DNA from: a virus
IMG/VR virus record: IMGVR_UViG_3300021170_000033
Coordinates: 1 to 44,981 of that record
Strand: one strand, 5' to 3'
Length of the DNA stretch: 44,981 bases
The position numbers and the translations under genes were made by a program. Shown here one piece after another: positions 6,182 through 28,296 of this stretch; the first letter of the stretch is position 1, and the number at the start of each line of letters is the position of its first letter. Under the pieces are notes generated by a model. The model had not been told where the DNA came from, made no database searches, and worked only from the letters and a program-made list of their open reading frames with translations.

Positions 6182-6255
6182 GCGGGACTGGCCTATTGGC
6201 AGGGCATCAGTCTTCCAAACTGAACAGACGGGTTCGATTCCCGTGTCTCGCTCCA
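6182..6255 (+). tRNA. tRNA-Gly (anticodon TCC)
   Basis: All four stems pair: acceptor GCGGGAC with GTCTCGC (one G-T), D stem GCC/GGC, anticodon stem TCAGT/ACTGA around loop CTTCCAA, and T stem ACGGG/CCCGT with loop TTCGATT. CCA is encoded (6253-6255). Confidence 0.95.
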
Positions 6256-6271
6256 AAAGTTTCTAGCTTGC

Positions 6272-6378
6272 AGCGTGGAGGGACACGCTCAAGTCGTGAT
6301 GGACGCTGGCTCGGCACGACTATTTCTTTCGTCTAATCGGAACCGAAGCCGAATTCGGAAGTGAAGTACAGGCCAGCG
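6272..6378. other. Structured spacer between tRNA-Gly and the first tRNA-Thr
   Basis: This 150-base gap contains a 6-bp hairpin (6272-6289), a 7-bp repeat AGTCGTG/CACGACT (6292-6298 with 6315-6321), a competing 7-bp pair CGCTGGC/GCCAGCG (6304-6310 with 6372-6378), TCGG-AA-CCGA (6337-6346) and the palindrome CCGAATTCGG (6349-6358). The two 7-bp pairings exclude each other. I cannot assign it to a known RNA family; it is not a tRNA. Confidence 0.4.
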
Positions 6379-6409
6379 AGCTACCCAAGGGGAGCCAAGC
6401 TAGAATTGA

Positions 6410-6483
6410 GCACTGTTGGTCTAGTGGCATGACGCGGCTTTCGTAAAGCTGAAGCCTGTGTTCGATTCACAGATGGTGCTCCA
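6410..6483 (+). tRNA. tRNA-Thr (anticodon CGT)
   Basis: Acceptor GCACTGT pairs with ATGGTGC with two wobbles, D stem GTC/GAC, anticodon stem CGGCT/AGCTG with loop TTCGTAA, and T stem CTGTG/CACAG with loop TTCGATT. CCA is encoded. It reads ACG. Confidence 0.93.
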
Positions 6484-6485
6484 GG

Positions 6486-6559
6486 GCCGATGTAGTTTAG
6501 TGGCAGAATTCTTCCTTGGTAAGGAAGAGACTCGGGTTCGATTCCCGGCGACGGCTCCA
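6486..6559 (+). tRNA. tRNA-Thr (anticodon GGT)
   Basis: Acceptor GCCGATG pairs with CGACGGC apart from one A-A mismatch, D stem GTT/AAT, anticodon stem CTTCC/GGAAG with loop TTGGTAA, and T stem TCGGG/CCCGG. CCA is encoded. It reads ACC and ACT. Only two bases separate it from the previous tRNA. Confidence 0.92.
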
Positions 6560-6566
6560 AAACTTT

Positions 6567-6640
6567 GCCGAGTTCGTTCAGTGGTAGGACCGGGAGCTTG
6601 TACCTCCCAGACGTGGGTTCGATTCCTACACTTGGCTCCA
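6567..6640 (+). tRNA. tRNA-Thr (anticodon TGT)
   Basis: Acceptor GCCGAGT pairs with ACTTGGC (one wobble), D stem GTT/GAC, anticodon stem GGGAG/CTCCC with loop CTTGTAC, and T stem GTGGG/CCTAC. CCA is encoded. It reads ACA. With its two neighbours the phage covers the whole threonine codon box. Confidence 0.93.
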
Positions 6641-6643
6641 AAT

Positions 6644-6718
6644 GTGGCCGAAGCCAAACGGTGCGGCGCGGGACTGTGGCTCCCGTTCTAGTGGATTCGA
6701 CTTCCACCGGCCACCCCA
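6644..6718 (+). tRNA. tRNA-His (anticodon GTG)
   Basis: A perfect acceptor GTGGCCG/CGGCCAC, D stem GCC/GGC, anticodon stem CGGGA/TCCCG with loop CTGTGGC, T stem GTGGA/TCCAC with loop TTCGACT, discriminator C73 and encoded CCA. C73 is typical of tRNA-His, but the base before the acceptor (position -1) is T and not the usual encoded G. Confidence 0.92.
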
Positions 6719-9793: not shown

Positions 9794-10666
9794 ATGGGAC
9801 CGACGAGAAGCGTGCAGCAATTTATCGACAAGTCATTTGAACCCGAAGAAGCGCTGAGCAAGCCAAGCGGGGTAATTATCGCCACTCCTGAGCCTCAGCC
9901 TGCCGCTCTAGCTCCCGTTGCGGCCCCGGCAGTTCTTGCCCCGGCACACTCTCAGTCAGAGACGGAAATACTGCGCCTCGCCATTGAGAAGGGCGCACCG
10001 ATTGAGACCATCGAGCGCGTAGTAGCTTTGCTCGAAAAGGAACGCTCCCGTCAGGCCGAGATTGAGTTCAACGAGGCGCTGAATCGAGTCCAATCCAAGA
10101 TCAAGCGTGTTGCTCCCGACTTGGACAACACGCAAACCCGAAGCAAATACGCCTCCTACGCCGCCATCGACCGCGTGATTCGGCCTATCTACTCGGATGA
10201 GGGATTCAGCCTCTCGTTCACGGAAGAAGATTGCCCTAAGCCTGAGCACGTTCGCATCGTCTGTTTTGTTTCCAAGGGAGCGTACACGCGCCAGTACCGC
10301 AAAGACATGCCAGCGGACGGCAAGGGCGCAAAGGGCGGCGATGTGATGACCAAGACGCACGCCGCTGCCGCTGCCGACTCCTACGCCAAGCGGTATCTGG
10401 TGAAAGACATCTTCAACATCGCAATCGGACAGGATGACGACGACGGCAATCTCAGCCGCCCAGGGTCGGGTGAGCCCTTCATCGAAGCCGAGGAGATCGA
10501 GAAGAACTGCGGAGAAATCTCCCGCGCAAAAGACGTGGCGGAACTGAAGTTTCTGTACGGGGTCGCCTTTGGCAAGGCCCGAGAAATTGGCGACCGCAAA
10601 GCAATGGCGCACTACATACAGGCGAAGGACAAGAGGAAGGGGGAACTTGACCATGCCTCTCGTTGA
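9794..10666 (+). CDS. erf: ERF-family single-strand annealing protein
   Basis: 290 residues. After a Pro/Ala-rich N-terminus (about 30-55), residues 60-215 carry the ERF pattern: an EKERSRQAEIEFNEALNRVQ helix, KYASYAAIDRVIRPIYSDEGFSLSF, then HAAAAADSYAKRYLVKDIFNIAIGQDDDD. ERF proteins anneal complementary single strands during recombination and circularisation. The adjacent YqaJ exonuclease (overlap 14 bases) is the usual partner that makes the single-stranded ends. The C-terminal ~70 residues are charged and helical. Confidence 0.88.
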   Translation: MGPTRSVQQFIDKSFEPEEALSKPSGVIIATPEPQPAALAPVAAPAVLAPAHSQSETEILRLAIEKGAPIETIERVVALLEKERSRQAEIEFNEALNRVQSKIKRVAPDLDNTQTRSKYASYAAIDRVIRPIYSDEGFSLSFTEEDCPKPEHVRIVCFVSKGAYTRQYRKDMPADGKGAKGGDVMTKTHAAAAADSYAKRYLVKDIFNIAIGQDDDDGNLSRPGSGEPFIEAEEIEKNCGEISRAKDVAELKFLYGVAFGKAREIGDRKAMAHYIQAKDKRKGELDHASR

Positions 10667-11339
10667 GGTCGAGCAGGGCACCGCCGAATGGCTCCAGATG
10701 CGAACCGGATGCGTCACGGGCTCCCGGGTGGCCGATGTAATGGCCAAGCTTAAGCGGAAAGATGGCGAGGCGCAATCCCGCGCCGACTACAAGGCGCAAA
10801 TCGTCAGCGAGATCCTGACCGGCCGCGCCGCCGACCATTACGTAAGTCCTGCAATGGAGTGGGGCAAGGAGAATGAAATCTTCGCCCGCGGTGTCTACGA
10901 GGTCGAGGTTGGCTCCATTGAACCGGTCGGCTTCGCTCTGCATTCCAAGATCGCCCGTTTTGGCGCATCGCCAGATGGCCTAGTCGGGACGGACGGCCTC
11001 GTAGAGTTCAAGTGCCCGAACACTTCAACCCACATCGACTACATCCTCGCCGGCGTCGTTCCCGCCGAATACCAGTGGCAGATGCTCGCTGAGATGGCCT
11101 GCGCCGAGCGGCAATGGTGCGACTTCGTTAGCTATGACCCACGCCTGCCAAAGAGATTGCAACTGTTCGTGCGCCGCTTAGAGCGCGACGACTCACGGAT
11201 CGCGGAAATGGAAGCGGAAGTGGTCAAGTTTCTGGCTGAAGTAGACGAACTGATAGCCAAGCTCAATAAGAGCACGCTCGTAGATTTGGACCCAACACTT
11301 GAAAGCAAGCTGCGAGCGAGCTTGGAGACGGCGAAGTGA
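10653..11339 (+). CDS. YqaJ/lambda-exonuclease-type recombination nuclease
   Basis: 228 residues from ATG 10653 (AGGGGG upstream). PD-(D/E)XK catalytic residues can be placed: Glu74 in GKENE, Asp108 in SPDGL, and Glu118-x-Lys120 in VEFKCP. The N-terminal QGTAEWLQMRTGCVTGSR is the standard YqaJ opening. It digests one DNA strand from duplex ends to load the neighbouring ERF protein. The tail is helical. Confidence 0.9.
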   Translation: MPLVEVEQGTAEWLQMRTGCVTGSRVADVMAKLKRKDGEAQSRADYKAQIVSEILTGRAADHYVSPAMEWGKENEIFARGVYEVEVGSIEPVGFALHSKIARFGASPDGLVGTDGLVEFKCPNTSTHIDYILAGVVPAEYQWQMLAEMACAERQWCDFVSYDPRLPKRLQLFVRRLERDDSRIAEMEAEVVKFLAEVDELIAKLNKSTLVDLDPTLESKLRASLETAK

Positions 11340-19068: not shown

Positions 19069-19233
19069 GTGAACTGTCCTAAGTGTGGCGCCAAGACCTG
19101 GGTAGATGAAACGCGGCCAATCCACGCGCTGATTGAGCGAACCCGCGTATGCGAATCCTGCCGAGAGCGTTTCAAAACTATCGAATACATCCCGCCTGAG
19201 CCTAATACGAAAACGTTGCGCCCGACATCTTGA
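19069..19233 (+). CDS. NrdR-type zinc ribbon, stand-alone
   Basis: 54 residues from GTG 19069. It follows the N-terminal domain of NrdR: MNCPKCGAKT, V-x-ETR, RTRVCESCRERFKTIEY, with all four Cys ligands. NrdR represses ribonucleotide reductase genes, but its ATP-cone domain is absent here. It may bind DNA as a mini-repressor or interfere with host NrdR; both ideas are inference. Ribosome site weak. Confidence 0.65.
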   Translation: MNCPKCGAKTWVDETRPIHALIERTRVCESCRERFKTIEYIPPEPNTKTLRPTS

Positions 19234-19802: not shown

Positions 19803-19951
19803 AGCGCCTCAAAGCCAAACAGTCGGCCAAGCGAATCCCCACGCAAGCGGAACGCCAACAGTTGCGCATTAAACAGCGCGTTTCCATGCACATCCAGCAA
19901 GGCCCGGTGAGGGAAGCAGAGGCCTTGAGCAAGGCTCGCCAGCAAACCTGA
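19799..19951 (+). CDS. 50-residue basic microprotein
   Basis: ATGA overlap at the start, one-base overlap at the end (TGATG). The peptide is strongly basic at the N-terminus (KRLKAKQSAKR) and helical, Gln-rich, afterwards. Probably nucleic-acid associated; not recognised. Confidence 0.45.
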   Translation: MKRLKAKQSAKRIPTQAERQQLRIKQRVSMHIQQGPVREAEALSKARQQT

Positions 19952-20166
19952 TGGTTCACGAAGGACTGCCTTGGACGCCGGCCGAGTTACGAATTATCGA
20001 GCTTATCTGCCAGGGCTTGAACCCACGCGAGATCGCCCAAATGCACAGAAACTCCGTGTACACGATACGGACGCACGTCACCAATGCTCGAGAGCGCGTT
20101 GGTGCCAAGACCACGGCTCAGCTGGTGGCTGTGTATCTGCGTCGAGAGAATAGGGCGGCAGCGTAA
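19951..20166 (+). CDS. LuxR/GerE-type DNA-binding protein
   Basis: 71 residues consisting of one GerE helix-turn-helix domain: WTPAELRIIELICQGLNPREIAQMHRNSVYTIRTHVTNARERVGAKTTAQLVAVYL. There is no receiver or ligand domain, so it is a stand-alone DNA binder like sigma-4 or GerE-type phage regulators. It lies at the border between early genes and packaging genes and is a candidate activator of late transcription (inference). Confidence 0.85.
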   Translation: MVHEGLPWTPAELRIIELICQGLNPREIAQMHRNSVYTIRTHVTNARERVGAKTTAQLVAVYLRRENRAAA

Positions 20167-20170
20167 AAAT

Positions 20171-20584
20171 ATGCCTGAGAACAGACAGGGAAGCAGACAG
20201 AGGCAACCGAAGACGGAGCACTTGGCCCCGTACCATTTCCCGAAGGGAGTTAGCGGGAATCCTGGTGGCCGGCCAAAGGAATTGTTTCGCACGGTGGCGC
20301 TGCAAAAGCTAGTTAAGTTGGTGAGAAAGGGAAAGTTAGAGGCGGCTGCTATTGAGCACGTTGTAGAGGCTCAAGTGAAGGCCGCGATAAAAGGGAACAC
20401 GAAAGCGTTTGTGGCCCTTCGGGATACGGTAGACGGCCGGCCTCAGCAAACCATTGAGCACACGGGGAATATCATTCACGAGATCACTGAGCTTGAAAAG
20501 AAACACGCCTTGGGAACGCTCGCAAAGATTCAGAAGTTGGCGGTAATCGACGTAACACCGGAGGAAGCTAGTGCCAGAGATTGA
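20171..20584 (+). CDS. DUF5681-like protein, probable small terminase role
   Basis: 137 residues from ATG 20171. The signature FPKGVSGNPGGRPK near the N-terminus is that of DUF5681-type proteins that often precede phage large terminases. A helical region follows (KLVKLVRKGKLEAAAIEHVVEAQVKAAIKGNTKAF) with a Gly/Arg loop. A DNA-recognition function in packaging is inferred from position. Confidence 0.65.
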   Translation: MPENRQGSRQRQPKTEHLAPYHFPKGVSGNPGGRPKELFRTVALQKLVKLVRKGKLEAAAIEHVVEAQVKAAIKGNTKAFVALRDTVDGRPQQTIEHTGNIIHEITELEKKHALGTLAKIQKLAVIDVTPEEASARD

Positions 20585-21110
20585 CCTTGAATCAGCGTTG
20601 AAGACGAATGTTCTAAAGTTGGGCAGCATGGAGCTCGAGGCCCATTCCGATCGCATCATCGTCGTGCAGGATGATTTCATTTCAGGTTACGAGTGTTTGA
20701 CCTGCGAAGGCGAGCAGGAAATCACCTGCGACAGTTGCCGCGGTACGGGCAACAGTTTGGTGGTGAAAGACGGGAAGTGCTCCAAATGCCAAGGGCGCAA
20801 GAGGATTGTTTGTCCGACCTGTGGCGGGAAGGGGGCAACGCTGGTTATTCCCGAGACGGCAGAGCGTCGCCCAACCACTGGCCAGATTCTCAGCGTTGGC
20901 CCAAAAGTGACCGGGTTTGAGCGGGGCCAGTCCGTGATCTATCCCAGCTTCGCCGGCCATGTGTGGGATCTGACGGCTCTAGACATTCACGGCAAGGAAG
21001 TAACTGTCGTAGTGGTGTGCCTGCGCGAAGATGAAGTGCTGGCCAAGGTTTCAGGGCACTTGGAATTGCGGCGCGTGCGGAAGTCTGCGGCGATGAGCAC
21101 GGCGGCGTAA
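20571..21110 (+). CDS. GroES co-chaperonin with DnaJ-type zinc domain inserted in the mobile loop
   Basis: 179 residues from GTG 20571 with GGAGGAAG upstream. The GroES barrel is recognisable: SDRIIVV (27-33), then after an insertion LVIPETAERRPTTGQILSVG (91-110), and LREDEVLAKV (151-160). Between them, residues 42-88 hold four CxxCxGxx motifs (Cys 42, 45, 53, 56, 70, 73, 81, 84), the zinc pattern of DnaJ but with shorter spacers (3, 9 and 3 residues). The insertion falls just before the hydrophobic LVI that corresponds to the GroEL-binding loop of GroES. No GroEL is encoded, so it would act with host GroEL, as T4 gp31 does, probably in capsid protein folding. Confidence 0.82.
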   Translation: MPEIDLESALKTNVLKLGSMELEAHSDRIIVVQDDFISGYECLTCEGEQEITCDSCRGTGNSLVVKDGKCSKCQGRKRIVCPTCGGKGATLVIPETAERRPTTGQILSVGPKVTGFERGQSVIYPSFAGHVWDLTALDIHGKEVTVVVVCLREDEVLAKVSGHLELRRVRKSAAMSTAA

Positions 21111-21111
21111 C

Positions 21112-21297
21112 ATGAGAAACTTCGACAAAGTTAAAGCGTTGGAGCGCTTGTACTCCGAACTCAGTAAGGTTGAATACAACCCGCAATTCTCATCCAACGG
21201 CCAGAGTTTTGCCGTTACGACCACAGTGTTCCCGCAAGACATCACGTATATTCTCGACGTGCTTTCAGAAGCTATTCATACCGAACGGAACAAGTGA
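21112..21297 (+). CDS. Small hypothetical protein before the terminase
   Basis: 61 residues, helical at both ends with a short beta part (FAVTTTVFPQDITYILDVL). No ribosome site beyond the GGCGTAAC context. It overlaps the terminase start (GTGA). Not recognised. Confidence 0.6.
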   Translation: MRNFDKVKALERLYSELSKVEYNPQFSSNGQSFAVTTTVFPQDITYILDVLSEAIHTERNK

Positions 21298-22985
21298 CCA
21301 GTCAGCGCTGGAAAATCCTTCCCATCCCTACGGATGACGAGCAAGCGTACCTTGACGCTATCCGGCTCAACTCGCTGGGCTCGCTATTTTTCTTTGTTCA
21401 CCACACGTTAGGCCGGAACCGCCTGGCTAAGCTCCACTGGCAGATGTGCCAATCCTTGGAAACAGAAGATTTGCACATGGTCTTCGAGATTCCCATGGGG
21501 CACTTCAAGACCACGGTGGGCACGGAAGGCTTATCCATGTGGTGGGCTCTGCCGTTCACCGCGCGCGACGAGTTTCAGATGAGGGCTTTGGGCTACGGCG
21601 ACGAGTGGATTCGCTGGATGAAGATTGCTCACGACCAGAACACCAGAACGCTGATTACCCACGAAGTAGAAGCCCTGGCAATCAAGATGGGCAAGAACGT
21701 GGACGAGCACTATCAGAACAATCGGCTGTTTCGATCCGTGTTCAAAGACATCCTGCCGGATAGCGCCTCGACCTGGAACGATCACAGTAAGTTCCACAAG
21801 CGTTCAAAGGACTCAGCGCACGGCGAGGGAACGTACGAATATCGCGGCGTTGGCCAGTCGCTTCAGTCCATGCACTTCTCGGGGATCATCAACGATGACA
21901 GTTTTGGACGAGAGGCACAGCAGAACTCACTGAAGGGTGACGGTAATATCGCGGATGGGATTTACCGCTGGTGGAAGCAGACCACGACCCGCTACGACTC
22001 TGAGACATTCACGAAGACCGGCATCGGCCGGCAGTTGGTAATCGGCAACCGCTGGGGTCACGCGGACCTAAACAGCAACATTCGTAAGAACCATCCAGAG
22101 TTCAAGATTGAATCGCACTCAGCAGAGGGCGGATGCTGCAAGCTTCATCCAGCCAATATGCCAATCTTCCCCGAAGAGTACTCCATGGAACGGCTGGCGA
22201 GCATCAGGAAGACCCTGATGGACCAGCACAACGGGAATTACGACTACGCACACTTCTACCTGAATCAGTCGGTTCTGCCGGAAGAGTGCATCTTCAAGCC
22301 GGAATGGTTGCGGTACTTCCGATTCAAACAGTCACGACCCGATCTCAGCCTGGATGATCTCCGCAACATGCTCCTGCTCGAGCATGAAGTGAAAGATGGC
22401 ATCGCGGCGGACGATATTGCAGCTGGCGCTCTACACCTGCGAATGATTGTGGACCTCGCGCACGCGAAGAAGCGAAAGCGCTGTGACCACGTAATCCTGG
22501 TGGCCGGCTATGACCCCGAGACAGACCGCATTTACCTCTTGGAAGTCTGGGCAGAAGCTACCGGCTATTCCGAACTCGTTGAGCAGATTTACAAGATTGG
22601 CCGCAAGTGGGGCATGCGTGATTTTTGGCTGGAGACAGTAGGCGCGCAGAATATCCTGAAATTCTATCTCGATGAGCGGAACCGCAAGGAGTCACGGCCG
22701 CTCTACGTAAACGAATTGCCATACGACAACTCCGAGAACGCCAAGCAGAACCGAATCGAAGCTTTAGAGCCCGCGTTCAAGAACAACCAGATTTGGTGCC
22801 ACCGCAGCATGAAGAAGTTCATCGACCAATACACCTCTTACCCGGCTGGGCTGGTAGACGTGCTGGACACGCTGGGCTATTTGCCCGCGACATTGGAAGT
22901 TGTGCGCCGCAAGGAAGTGATGCAGTTCATTTCGCAGCAGCATGAAGAGTTTGCTAGCCGGCAAGTGGGAGCGGGAGGGTACTGA
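21294..22985 (+). CDS. terL: Terminase large subunit
   Basis: 563 residues from GTG 21294 (GTGA overlap). The ATPase half has a deviant Walker A EIPMGHFKTTVGT (about 65-77) and a Walker B-like hydrophobic strand ending in DD (SGIINDDSF, about 198-206). The C-terminal nuclease half has the RNase-H-like strand HVILVAGYDPETDRIYLLEVWAE with the catalytic Asp, a second acidic motif near FWLETVGAQN, and a third near DVLDTLGYLP. It packages DNA through the portal (23197). Both halves are intact. Confidence 0.88.
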   Translation: MTSQRWKILPIPTDDEQAYLDAIRLNSLGSLFFFVHHTLGRNRLAKLHWQMCQSLETEDLHMVFEIPMGHFKTTVGTEGLSMWWALPFTARDEFQMRALGYGDEWIRWMKIAHDQNTRTLITHEVEALAIKMGKNVDEHYQNNRLFRSVFKDILPDSASTWNDHSKFHKRSKDSAHGEGTYEYRGVGQSLQSMHFSGIINDDSFGREAQQNSLKGDGNIADGIYRWWKQTTTRYDSETFTKTGIGRQLVIGNRWGHADLNSNIRKNHPEFKIESHSAEGGCCKLHPANMPIFPEEYSMERLASIRKTLMDQHNGNYDYAHFYLNQSVLPEECIFKPEWLRYFRFKQSRPDLSLDDLRNMLLLEHEVKDGIAADDIAAGALHLRMIVDLAHAKKRKRCDHVILVAGYDPETDRIYLLEVWAEATGYSELVEQIYKIGRKWGMRDFWLETVGAQNILKFYLDERNRKESRPLYVNELPYDNSENAKQNRIEALEPAFKNNQIWCHRSMKKFIDQYTSYPAGLVDVLDTLGYLPATLEVVRRKEVMQFISQQHEEFASRQVGAGGY

Positions 22986-23197
22986 TGGACCCCGCCAAGC
23001 GGACTAATTTTCAAGATGTGACCGAGACTTTAGTTCGGGCCATGGAGCGCGCTGAAGAAATGGAGCATGTTGTTGTGCTCTATCAAGCAAAGGAATCCAC
23101 GGGGCGAACTGGCGGAATCTTCACGCAAAATGACGTGACACTCTCGCAGATGAACTGGCTTTTCGATTTAGGCAAAGCTTGGCTCATACAGGACTAA
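22985..23197 (+). CDS. Small hypothetical protein between terminase and portal
   Basis: 70 residues with a start overlapping the terminase stop (TGATG). The centre reads HVVVLYQAKESTGRTGGIFTQNDVTLSQMNWLFDLGKAWL, alpha/beta. Similar short genes at this site in other phages have no known role. Confidence 0.6.
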   Translation: MDPAKRTNFQDVTETLVRAMERAEEMEHVVVLYQAKESTGRTGGIFTQNDVTLSQMNWLFDLGKAWLIQD

Positions 23198-25218
23198 TGG
23201 CAACACTCCCAAGCGTTCCAACTGAGCAGACCCCCAAGATGTCCTACCGCACCCGACGCCAGTTCGAGTTGCGCGAGGCGGACTTTGGGGCGGATACCAA
23301 CGCTGCGGTCAACAAGTGGGTCCACGAGCAGATTGAGACGCGCACGAAGCAGCTGGAGAAGCTACACAAGAACCTCGTACCCGAGTGGCGCCGCATCGCG
23401 GAGGGCAAGCCGCGCGATGAAAAGAAGTCTTGGCCATTCGAGAATTGCGCGAACCTCGTCTATCAGCTCGTAGGCCAGACCACGGACGATACGGCCGCGC
23501 GCGTCGTGCAGTTGCTTTGGGCGACTTCGCCGCTGGCCATCTTCCGGTACTTCACGAAGTCATCGAACCAGGATGAATCGGCACACAACGCGGACAAGGC
23601 GCGAATCCTCGAGCAGTTCATTGATTACTCGGGATATGAGCCGAATGAGCTAAACCTTTGGGACGTTGAGAACTTGTGGTTCTCTGACAGCGGGAAGCTT
23701 GGTACGGCGTTCACTGTTGTTCGACCCGAGAAGAAGATCGAAGCGGTGTACGTCGGCTACCACGAAACTGACAAGAAAACTCAGTTCGAAGAGGCCACGC
23801 TATACGAAGGGCCGAAAGTAAACAATCTGCGATTTGAGGATGTCGGCTACGACCCCAACGCGAACAGCCTGGAAGAGTCCTCCATCGTCTATCGCATCGT
23901 CACGCTGAATAAGAGGGATCTGCAAGAGCGTGCCTTCCAGAAGCACTACAAAGAGGAAAAGGTCAAAGAAATTCTCGGCAAGCCGAACCGCTACGGGCCA
24001 GGCGAAACGAAGAAGAAAGAAAATAAGGCAAGAGGTGTTGTCTCGCAGGAAGACCGCGTACTGGCCGAGTGGGACGTTCACGAGTGCTATTTCTACTGGT
24101 ACCAGAACCACAAAAAGTATCGCTTGATTTGCTGGTATCACTACGAAACGAAGACCATGCTGAATCAGGTCTTCAGCTTCATCCCTGACAATCAGATCCC
24201 AATCGTACGGACGCGCCTATCAAGCGACAGTCACGGCATGCTGGGCCGCGGCTATGCGGACATGCTCAAGGATGCTCAAGACGAAATCTCCACCGCGAAG
24301 AACCAGCGCACCGATGCGATCACGTTTGGGATTCTGGGTATCAATCGGATCTCTCCAGGTAACCGGAACATTGACCGCAACTTCAAGTTTTTCCCCGGCG
24401 CCGGCGCTCCGTTCGGAAAAGACGAGTTTGAGCATATCAGCGTCGGTGAGCCTGCGATGGCGGGGCTGTCACTGCAAAACGAAGAGGCGATGATTAAACA
24501 AGCCGCGGAACGTGCTGGCGTAGGGCCGGCCGTGGCGGGTGCGGGATCTGGCACGGTCAACAAGAAGGGCCAGTACGGCAGCATGGGCACGCTCGCTGTC
24601 ATGCAGGATTCAAACACTCGAGCGAATCACCGAAGCTCAGACTTCCGGCACTCGCACATTCGGCTTATTGGGCTCGTCACGGATATGTACGGCGCCATGG
24701 GGCTCGGGCGCAAAGGCTCGCTGTTCGGACTGGACGACAAGCTTCTCGAAGAGGCGCTGTCCGATTACCTCGAGCGTAAAGTGAGAATCCCTATCCGCGC
24801 GGCGACGGCGAGCGCCAACAAGGAAGTCACCAAGCAGAACGAGCTTTTGTTGAGCCAGGCAGTCATGGCGCACAACAAGGAAATGTCCGCCATGTTGCAG
24901 GCGATCGACAACGCCAATACGCCACCGCACTACAAGTCTTGGCTGGTGAAAGTGGTAAAGGCCAAGAGCCGCCTGATGCGACAGATCATCCGAGACTTCC
25001 AGATTACCGACCAGCCGGAAGAGTTCATCCCCGAGCCGGAGGGCTTGGAGCAATTCGAGGCGCAGAATGAGCCGAAACAAAACCAGCCAGACCCAAGAAT
25101 CTTACAGATGGCCTCAGCTATTCGCCAACCTGGAGGTCCCCGAGCGGCTGTTCCTGGAGCAGGGGTGGGCGAAGCTGGAAGCGGACCTCAAGGCGAAGGC
25201 GGACGACTTGGCGCATAA
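23197..25218 (+). CDS. Portal protein
   Basis: 673 residues from ATG 23197 (TAATG overlap). Size, position after the terminase, and features such as an N-terminal helical region, FENCANLVYQLVGQTTDDTAARVVQLLWAT, GTAFTVVRP, and a long mid-region with WYHYETKTMLNQVFSFIPDNQIPIVRTRL fit podovirus-type portals. Residues ~440-500 hold a KQAAERAGVGPAVAGAGSG loop. The C-terminus is Pro/Gly-rich and shares its DNA with the next gene. Confidence 0.8.
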   Translation: MATLPSVPTEQTPKMSYRTRRQFELREADFGADTNAAVNKWVHEQIETRTKQLEKLHKNLVPEWRRIAEGKPRDEKKSWPFENCANLVYQLVGQTTDDTAARVVQLLWATSPLAIFRYFTKSSNQDESAHNADKARILEQFIDYSGYEPNELNLWDVENLWFSDSGKLGTAFTVVRPEKKIEAVYVGYHETDKKTQFEEATLYEGPKVNNLRFEDVGYDPNANSLEESSIVYRIVTLNKRDLQERAFQKHYKEEKVKEILGKPNRYGPGETKKKENKARGVVSQEDRVLAEWDVHECYFYWYQNHKKYRLICWYHYETKTMLNQVFSFIPDNQIPIVRTRLSSDSHGMLGRGYADMLKDAQDEISTAKNQRTDAITFGILGINRISPGNRNIDRNFKFFPGAGAPFGKDEFEHISVGEPAMAGLSLQNEEAMIKQAAERAGVGPAVAGAGSGTVNKKGQYGSMGTLAVMQDSNTRANHRSSDFRHSHIRLIGLVTDMYGAMGLGRKGSLFGLDDKLLEEALSDYLERKVRIPIRAATASANKEVTKQNELLLSQAVMAHNKEMSAMLQAIDNANTPPHYKSWLVKVVKAKSRLMRQIIRDFQITDQPEEFIPEPEGLEQFEAQNEPKQNQPDPRILQMASAIRQPGGPRAAVPGAGVGEAGSGPQGEGGRLGA

Positions 25219-27333: not shown

Positions 27334-28296
27334 ATGCCCGTAAACGTAATGTCTCGCAATATGTTCCCGCCGCTACTTGCGCCGGGCTTGCGCCACATCT
27401 TCGTGCAGTTCTTCGATCTCAAGCAGCGTGCGCCGCAGTACACGCACTACATGAATGAGATGACCAGCGAGGACGCCTACGAGATCGACTATGAGCTTTC
27501 CGGCACTGGGCCGATGCCCTTGATGCCGGAAGGGACGCGGCCGGTAACGGACGGCATCTTGCAGGGCGGCACCAAGAAGTACCTGCACTTGCAATACGGG
27601 CTGCTCTCCGAAGTCACCCGGCAACTGATTGCGGATGACAAGTACGGCATCGTTCGGCAGATGCCCAAAGCCCATGCGCGGTCGGCACTGTTTGGCCGGG
27701 AAGCGGTCTGCGCGTCGATCTTCAACCTGGGCGGAACGCTGCTCACCACAAATGACGGCGTGACCATCTTCAACACAGCTCACCCGCTGATGGGCGGACA
27801 GCAAGCAACTACAATCGCCCCTGGCATCTCCAACATCATCTCTTCGGCGGGAACATATCCGAACCGTCCGAACCCGGACACGGACCTGAGCTTTACCGCT
27901 TTGCAGCAAGCGATCAACATCTTCACGCGCATGCCGGACGCGCGCGGCATTCCCGTGCATGTGCAGCCGCGGCACCTTCCGCACCCTCCCGAACTTCGCT
28001 GGATCGTGCGGGAAATTCTCGGCTCTCCCGGCAAGCCGTACACCTCGGACAACGAGCTCAACGCCTTGCAGGCCGATAACCTGCAAGGACTCGAGCTGAA
28101 CTACCTGACCTCGCAATCCGGCTGGGGCCTTATCGCTGACAAGGAAGGCCACCAGATGAAGTTCTACGAGCGCGAGCCGGTCATGGCGCAGACCGACGAC
28201 GACTTCAAGACTCAGGTGCTTTTGTTCCTGAGTACGCAACGCTTCTCTGCCGGCTGCACCGTTTGGCCTGGCGTGTTCTTCTCTTACGGGCCGTAG
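27334..28296 (+). CDS. Major capsid protein
   Basis: 320 residues with GAGGAGATAAACAAGC upstream. The sequence fits HK97-fold capsid proteins related to Mu gpT: YTHYMNEMTSEDAYEIDYELSGTG (E-loop region), LSEVTRQLIADD, then GVTIFNTAHPL (a hallmark in this group), ALQQAINIFTRMPDARG, and C-terminal VLLFLSTQRFSAGCTVWPGVFF. No delta-domain/protease is encoded nearby. Confidence 0.82.
   Translation: MPVNVMSRNMFPPLLAPGLRHIFVQFFDLKQRAPQYTHYMNEMTSEDAYEIDYELSGTGPMPLMPEGTRPVTDGILQGGTKKYLHLQYGLLSEVTRQLIADDKYGIVRQMPKAHARSALFGREAVCASIFNLGGTLLTTNDGVTIFNTAHPLMGGQQATTIAPGISNIISSAGTYPNRPNPDTDLSFTALQQAINIFTRMPDARGIPVHVQPRHLPHPPELRWIVREILGSPGKPYTSDNELNALQADNLQGLELNYLTSQSGWGLIADKEGHQMKFYEREPVMAQTDDDFKTQVLLFLSTQRFSAGCTVWPGVFFSYGP

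Follow-up and report, generated by a model that had tools for sequence, protein, structure and literature searches.

In known GroEL-GroES complexes, the mobile loop of the co-chaperonin grips the apical rim of GroEL. Binding to GroEL is mediated by this loop, which in GroES and in the gp31 protein of phage T4 consists of 16-22 residues forming a flexible strand; gp31 has no roof, its mobile loops are longer, and its cage is larger and open (PMC6318259). Many phages encode GroES only, without GroEL (PMC7185714). Elaborated Cpn10 architectures also exist in the chloroplast proteins Cpn20/Cpn23, which gave the best Cpn10 sequence matches in the PDB to the phage protein reported here (hereafter Zn-GroES), but comprise tandem Cpn10 domains and carry no zinc insert. 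In Helicobacter pylori HspA, the metal-binding extension is C-terminal, and the mobile loop holds no structured zinc module. HspA is a metal-binding GroES, as is predicted for Zn-GroES, its metal being nickel (PMC8779794). Two-zinc hairpins with four CxxC motifs are found in the cysteine-rich domain of BSD2, ZnJ2 and DnaJ, where they are stand-alone or embedded in DnaJ and not located inside a GroES. BSD2, a plant protein related to the zinc domain of DnaJ, serves as an assembly chaperone for Rubisco.

In this work we analysed a window of 44,981 bases, which is the whole of a single virus record, and found in it a phage GroES whose mobile loop carries an insert with eight cysteines, arranged as four CxxCxGxx motifs (Table 1). 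The spacing of these motifs is tighter than in the BSD2/ZnJ2/DnaJ domain.

Table 1. Position of the Zn-GroES gene, its parts and the neighbouring head genes in the window
Feature	Position	Strand	Details
DUF5681 protein, directly upstream of Zn-GroES	20084..20584	+	Pfam PF18932, 45.3 bits
GGAGG ribosome-binding site	20560..20564	+	6 bases before the Zn-GroES GTG
Zn-GroES, phage co-chaperonin with zinc insert	20571..21110	+	GTG start to TAA, 179 aa
GroES barrel, N-terminal part (aa 20-34)	20628..20672	+	ends where the mobile loop starts
Mobile loop and predicted zinc insert (aa 35-90)	20673..20840	+	BSD2 match, residues 38-92
Cysteine core of the insert (aa 42-84)	20694-20822	+	motif 1, C42/C45; motif 2, C53/C56; motif 3, C70/C73; motif 4, C81/C84
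L91-V92-I93, counterpart of the GroEL-contacting IVL triplet of GroES	20841..20849	+	alignments
GroES barrel, C-terminal part (aa 94-161)	20850..21053	+	short roof hairpin
61-aa open reading frame between Zn-GroES and TerL	21112..21297	+	no family match
Terminase large subunit (TerL)	21294..22985	+	phrog_38, E 1.3e-37
Portal protein, SU10 type	23179..25218	+	PF23899, 46.8 bits
Major capsid protein (Phage_capsid_4 / Mu gpT-like)	27334..28296	+	PF25209, 37.7 bits

A search of viral contigs with this single protein returned no relative, and the family was gathered via the terminase and then with a family profile, in uncultured phages. It comprises 49 distinct phage proteins, of which 46 carry the insert and three lack it, and the Zn-GroES design is common to at least 45 uncultured phages. 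The eight cysteines and the segments flanking the insert are kept in dozens of contigs, with identities of 26-63%, and the differences between Zn-GroES and the family member L003 are dominated by third codon positions (55/35/112 at positions 1/2/3). This conservation and this substitution pattern rule out a sequencing error or a chance open reading frame.

The barrel had been predicted to be of the GroES type on both sides of the insert, a claim open to refutation by flanks that fail to match Cpn10. In the intact protein, the Pfam Cpn10 profile (PF00166) matches residues 90-159 with 23.8 bits (cut-off 21.1). Once residues 35-87 are removed, it matches both flanks, covering positions 5-92 of the 93 in the profile with 26.5 bits, and the claim thus held. 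Three relatives, with their inserts likewise removed, match most of the profile, with 36-40 bits. Of the 11 members scanned, every one matched both Cpn10 and DnaJ_CXXCXGXG at E values up to 1; GroES models from NCBI match 30 of 30 aligned members and DnaJ_bact matches 18 of the 30, both below their full-protein cut-offs where these are shown, the window protein included in the case of GroES.

An AlphaFold model computed with the family alignment as input has a mean pLDDT of 85.6, and a structural search with it places Cpn10 chains at the top of the list (Z 8-10), among them the GroEL-gp31 complex (2cgt, Z 9.8) and gp31 itself (1g31, Z 8.6). The same barrel is obtained in the model of a remote four-cysteine member with a reduced insert (1p3h, Z 9.7). 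Zn-GroES shares about 26% identity with E. coli GroES over aligned columns, its GA-TLVIP aligning with GGIVL in GroES. This GroEL-contact motif (G, hydrophobic residues and usually P) is retained in nearly all family members, the triplet being degraded in two of them, L002 and L025. The roof hairpin counts 11 residues, compared with 19 in E. coli GroES, and the protein extends C-terminally past the barrel. This hairpin is characteristic of cellular GroES but, gp31 having no roof either, is not required of the phage members. Zn-GroES resembles T4 gp31 in its phage Cpn10 fold (Z 8.6-9.8), absence of a roof, longer mobile loop and putative role in head assembly; unlike Zn-GroES, gp31 has a flexible loop without a zinc module, is not encoded in the head cluster and shows no close sequence relation. 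A second elaborated site occurs in three members of lineage B (L074, L075 and L094), where the roof region is enlarged to 39-50 residues instead of 11.

The insert sits after the first barrel strand and ahead of the GroEL-contact triplet, that is, in the mobile loop, and its fourth motif runs straight into GA-TLVIP. The predicted location directly before the LVI was thus confirmed, LVI being residues 91-93 and aligned with the IVL of GroES. The assignment of the insert to a DnaJ-type zinc domain stands in part: it is a four-CxxC module of the DnaJ superfamily, whose structure resembles that of BSD2 more closely than that of DnaJ itself. Residues 38-92 superimpose on BSD2 (6ekb) with Z 7.0 over 55 residues at 33% identity, a score below the value of 8 under which a match may reflect a common arrangement; this match agrees with the sequence models BSD2_CRD and DnaJ central domain, and with a sequence search of the PDB. 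DnaJ structures were not among the best 50 structural matches listed, which is no argument against a kinship with DnaJ. The expected match to DnaJ_CXXCXGXG (PF00684) in the middle of the protein was likewise found at full length but under the cut-off of 32.7, with 17.0-18.9 bits for the window protein (18.9 bits with the insert alone), and BSD2_CRD gave 21.5 bits with the insert alone (cut-off 27). The best insert tested, that of L007, reached 29.3 bits with DnaJ_CXXCXGXG and, with BSD2_CRD, 27.9 bits, over the cut-off. No J-domain was matched by Pfam within the 179 residues, and a zinc module without J-domain cannot be called DnaJ. The models thus assign the insert to the superfamily of DnaJ/BSD2 cysteine-rich domains, with four CxxC in a hairpin and predicted zinc sites formed by motifs 1 and 4 and by motifs 2 and 3.

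We infer zinc binding from the occurrence of the cysteines in sets of four. In the family, the insert holds 8, 4 or 0 cysteines and never 5-7, with the exception of L067, which has 9 (L045 being truncated by the contig end). The four-cysteine members retain the first and last motifs only. In a tree of the barrel, from which the insert was left out, the four-cysteine state appears in at least seven places on well supported branches; the tree is based on 121 columns and its outgroup branch is long, which leaves its depth uncertain. The gain or loss of whole sets of four with the first and last motif kept fits the prediction of a two-site zinc hairpin. Motifs 1 and 4 would form the basal site, kept in every insert-bearing member, and motifs 2 and 3 a distal site that would have been gained or lost as a unit several times.

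The gene lies close to those of TerL, the portal and the major capsid protein, which bears out the proposed link of a phage co-chaperonin with head genes. The upstream DUF5681 gene, small-terminase-like by position, overlaps the Zn-GroES start by 14 bases. Zn-GroES is found upstream of TerL throughout lineage A, with the exception of L019, where it is downstream and on the other strand; the contigs with TerL and no Zn-GroES are broken or end upstream. In lineage B, where neighbours were scanned, the genes preceding Zn-GroES encode a DNA polymerase and a phrog_14296 primase, and in L051 an insert-free Cpn10 follows the same primase family. L051, L062 and L063 are three nearly identical phages with an insert-free Cpn10. 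In 12 of the 13 records of lineage B and insert-free phages, the capsid protein is 40-48% identical to that of the window, the GroES gene being elsewhere.

Named phages with a capsid match show the same association. A Cpn10 gene is present in the head cluster of all eight whose cluster was read: Roseobacter CRP-901, Pelagibacter HTVC027P, Alcaligenes QDWS535, Planktothrix Pag-Yong1, Caulobacter GB2A, DSL-LC04 and two Manatee Spring genomes. Their capsid proteins are 27-30% identical to that of the window, and seven of the eight GroES were already annotated, that of Caulobacter GB2A (gp089c) being identified here (Pfam, 37 bits). Unlike Zn-GroES, none of them carries a zinc insert, their loops being mostly textbook (e.g. 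KTKGGIVL), and their GroES gene, instead of preceding TerL, is situated upstream of the capsid gene at a distance of a few genes. The recurrence of phage GroES with one capsid family at differing genome places points to the capsid as an obligate chaperonin client. In L051, L062 and L063, as in the named phages, this capsid type is served by a GroES without insert; folding of the capsid as such thus does not require the insert, and the capsid does not account for the insert's role. Zn-GroES is the sole Cpn10 of the window, and no Cpn60/GroEL was found in the 23 virus records searched, which may be fragments; the GroEL of the host would thus be its partner.

We propose that Zn-GroES probably acts in head assembly as a roofless co-chaperonin of host GroEL, with a mobile loop bearing a zinc hairpin. 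Seven copies would form a roofless lid on host GroEL and help phage head proteins to fold, the major capsid protein foremost. The hairpin ends right at the GroEL-contact triplet, and could hold it on a longer and more rigid arm and add contacts at the GroEL rim; the phage lid might thereby compete with host GroES or fit a particular GroEL, and perhaps be raised. Stiffening of the loop is the most likely role of the hairpin, a role deduced solely from its position. Stiffer or more selective docking to GroEL is at least as likely as binding of unfolded substrate by the hairpin, and we put it first because the service of the same capsid type by insert-free lids weighs somewhat against a client-specific need.

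To the extent of our searches, and as the original prediction had it, no GroES with such an insert appears to have been described. None was found in the literature searched, outside which most subscription papers lie; neither the 50,697 phage records nor the 72,556 plasmids searched yielded a match spanning both the Cpn10 and zinc parts, a combination seen in no cultivated phage; and a pattern-seeded, non-exhaustive scan of 84,980 prokaryote species gave DnaJ and other zinc-repeat proteins and no fusion. Phage GroES as such is already known, and it is the zinc module in the mobile loop that appears undescribed. The family thus places a predicted folded zinc hairpin in the functional heart of GroES. 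With putative versions of two, one or no zinc sites that occur with the same capsid type, it offers a ready natural series to probe loop flexibility and to ask how phages take over GroEL.

Other readings have to be weighed against this co-chaperonin with a docking hairpin. In one, the view originally put forward, in which two chaperone steps would be merged and which we regard as rather doubtful, Zn-GroES would be a DnaJ-like holdase on the lid, its seven zinc hairpins binding unfolded or assembling head protein and moving it into the GroEL cage or out of it. The kinship of the insert with the Rubisco assembly chaperone BSD2 and with DnaJ, and the head-gene context, would suit such a function, but phages with this type of capsid do without the insert in their GroES, and the mobile loop lies at the apical rim, so that substrate would be met there and not inside the cavity. 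The stand-alone relative ZnJ2 cuts both ways: it holds clients without a J-domain, yet its cysteine mutant kept the holding activity (PMC5818400), so that the presence of zinc does not indicate client binding. The broader idea of an Hsp10 lid and an Hsp40-type zinc client-binding module united in one phage protein, with the lid bringing head protein, unfolded or in assembly, to the GroEL of the host, is in our view improbable, and so is the picture of seven zinc arms round the GroEL rim that goes with it.

We consider it very unlikely that the GroES-like barrel no longer works with GroEL and serves, for instance, as a zinc-stabilised protein of the virion or of head maturation. The divergence from cellular GroES, the C-terminal extension and the degraded triplet of two members could be read in this way, but nearly all members keep the contact triplet, and the named phages with the same capsid have an ordinary GroES in the same gene set. 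Finally, the zinc-lobed GroES-like domain of medium-chain alcohol dehydrogenases (ADH) hardly deserves consideration in place of a co-chaperonin and was rejected, since ADH folds, present in the structural search at Z 5-7, rank below Cpn10 structures, the weak ADH_N match is under its cut-off where listed while Cpn10 exceeds its own and GroES models match, the 179 residues hold no nucleotide-binding domain, and the ADH_N alignment puts the structural zinc lobe of ADH after the GDxV strand, which the insert of Zn-GroES precedes.

Additional features were noted around the family. In one sub-lineage, a cysteine-rich protein of ~120 aa (CGKCRDF...YCG.C...CCNLY) is encoded between Zn-GroES and TerL (L013:2923-3297), with equivalents in L007, L008, L010, L014-L017 and L020; the one member scanned, that of L013, had no Pfam match. 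The TerL gene is interrupted by about 0.65-0.9 kb in L006 (6939-7594), L020 (2710-3368) and L038 (2874-3811, repeated in L039), these interruptions being probably introns or homing elements. In the window, a 71-aa protein consisting only of a LuxR-type HTH (19951-20166; PF00196, 25.7 bits) is encoded just before the head genes, and at 19069-19233 lies a 54-aa NrdR-type zinc ribbon that is free-standing and lacks the ATP-cone (PF22811, 38.3 bits). Genes for an ERF single-strand annealing protein and, after it, a YqaJ exonuclease make up a recombination pair (9794-11339), and five tRNA genes (Gly, three Thr, His) are clustered at 6182-6718.
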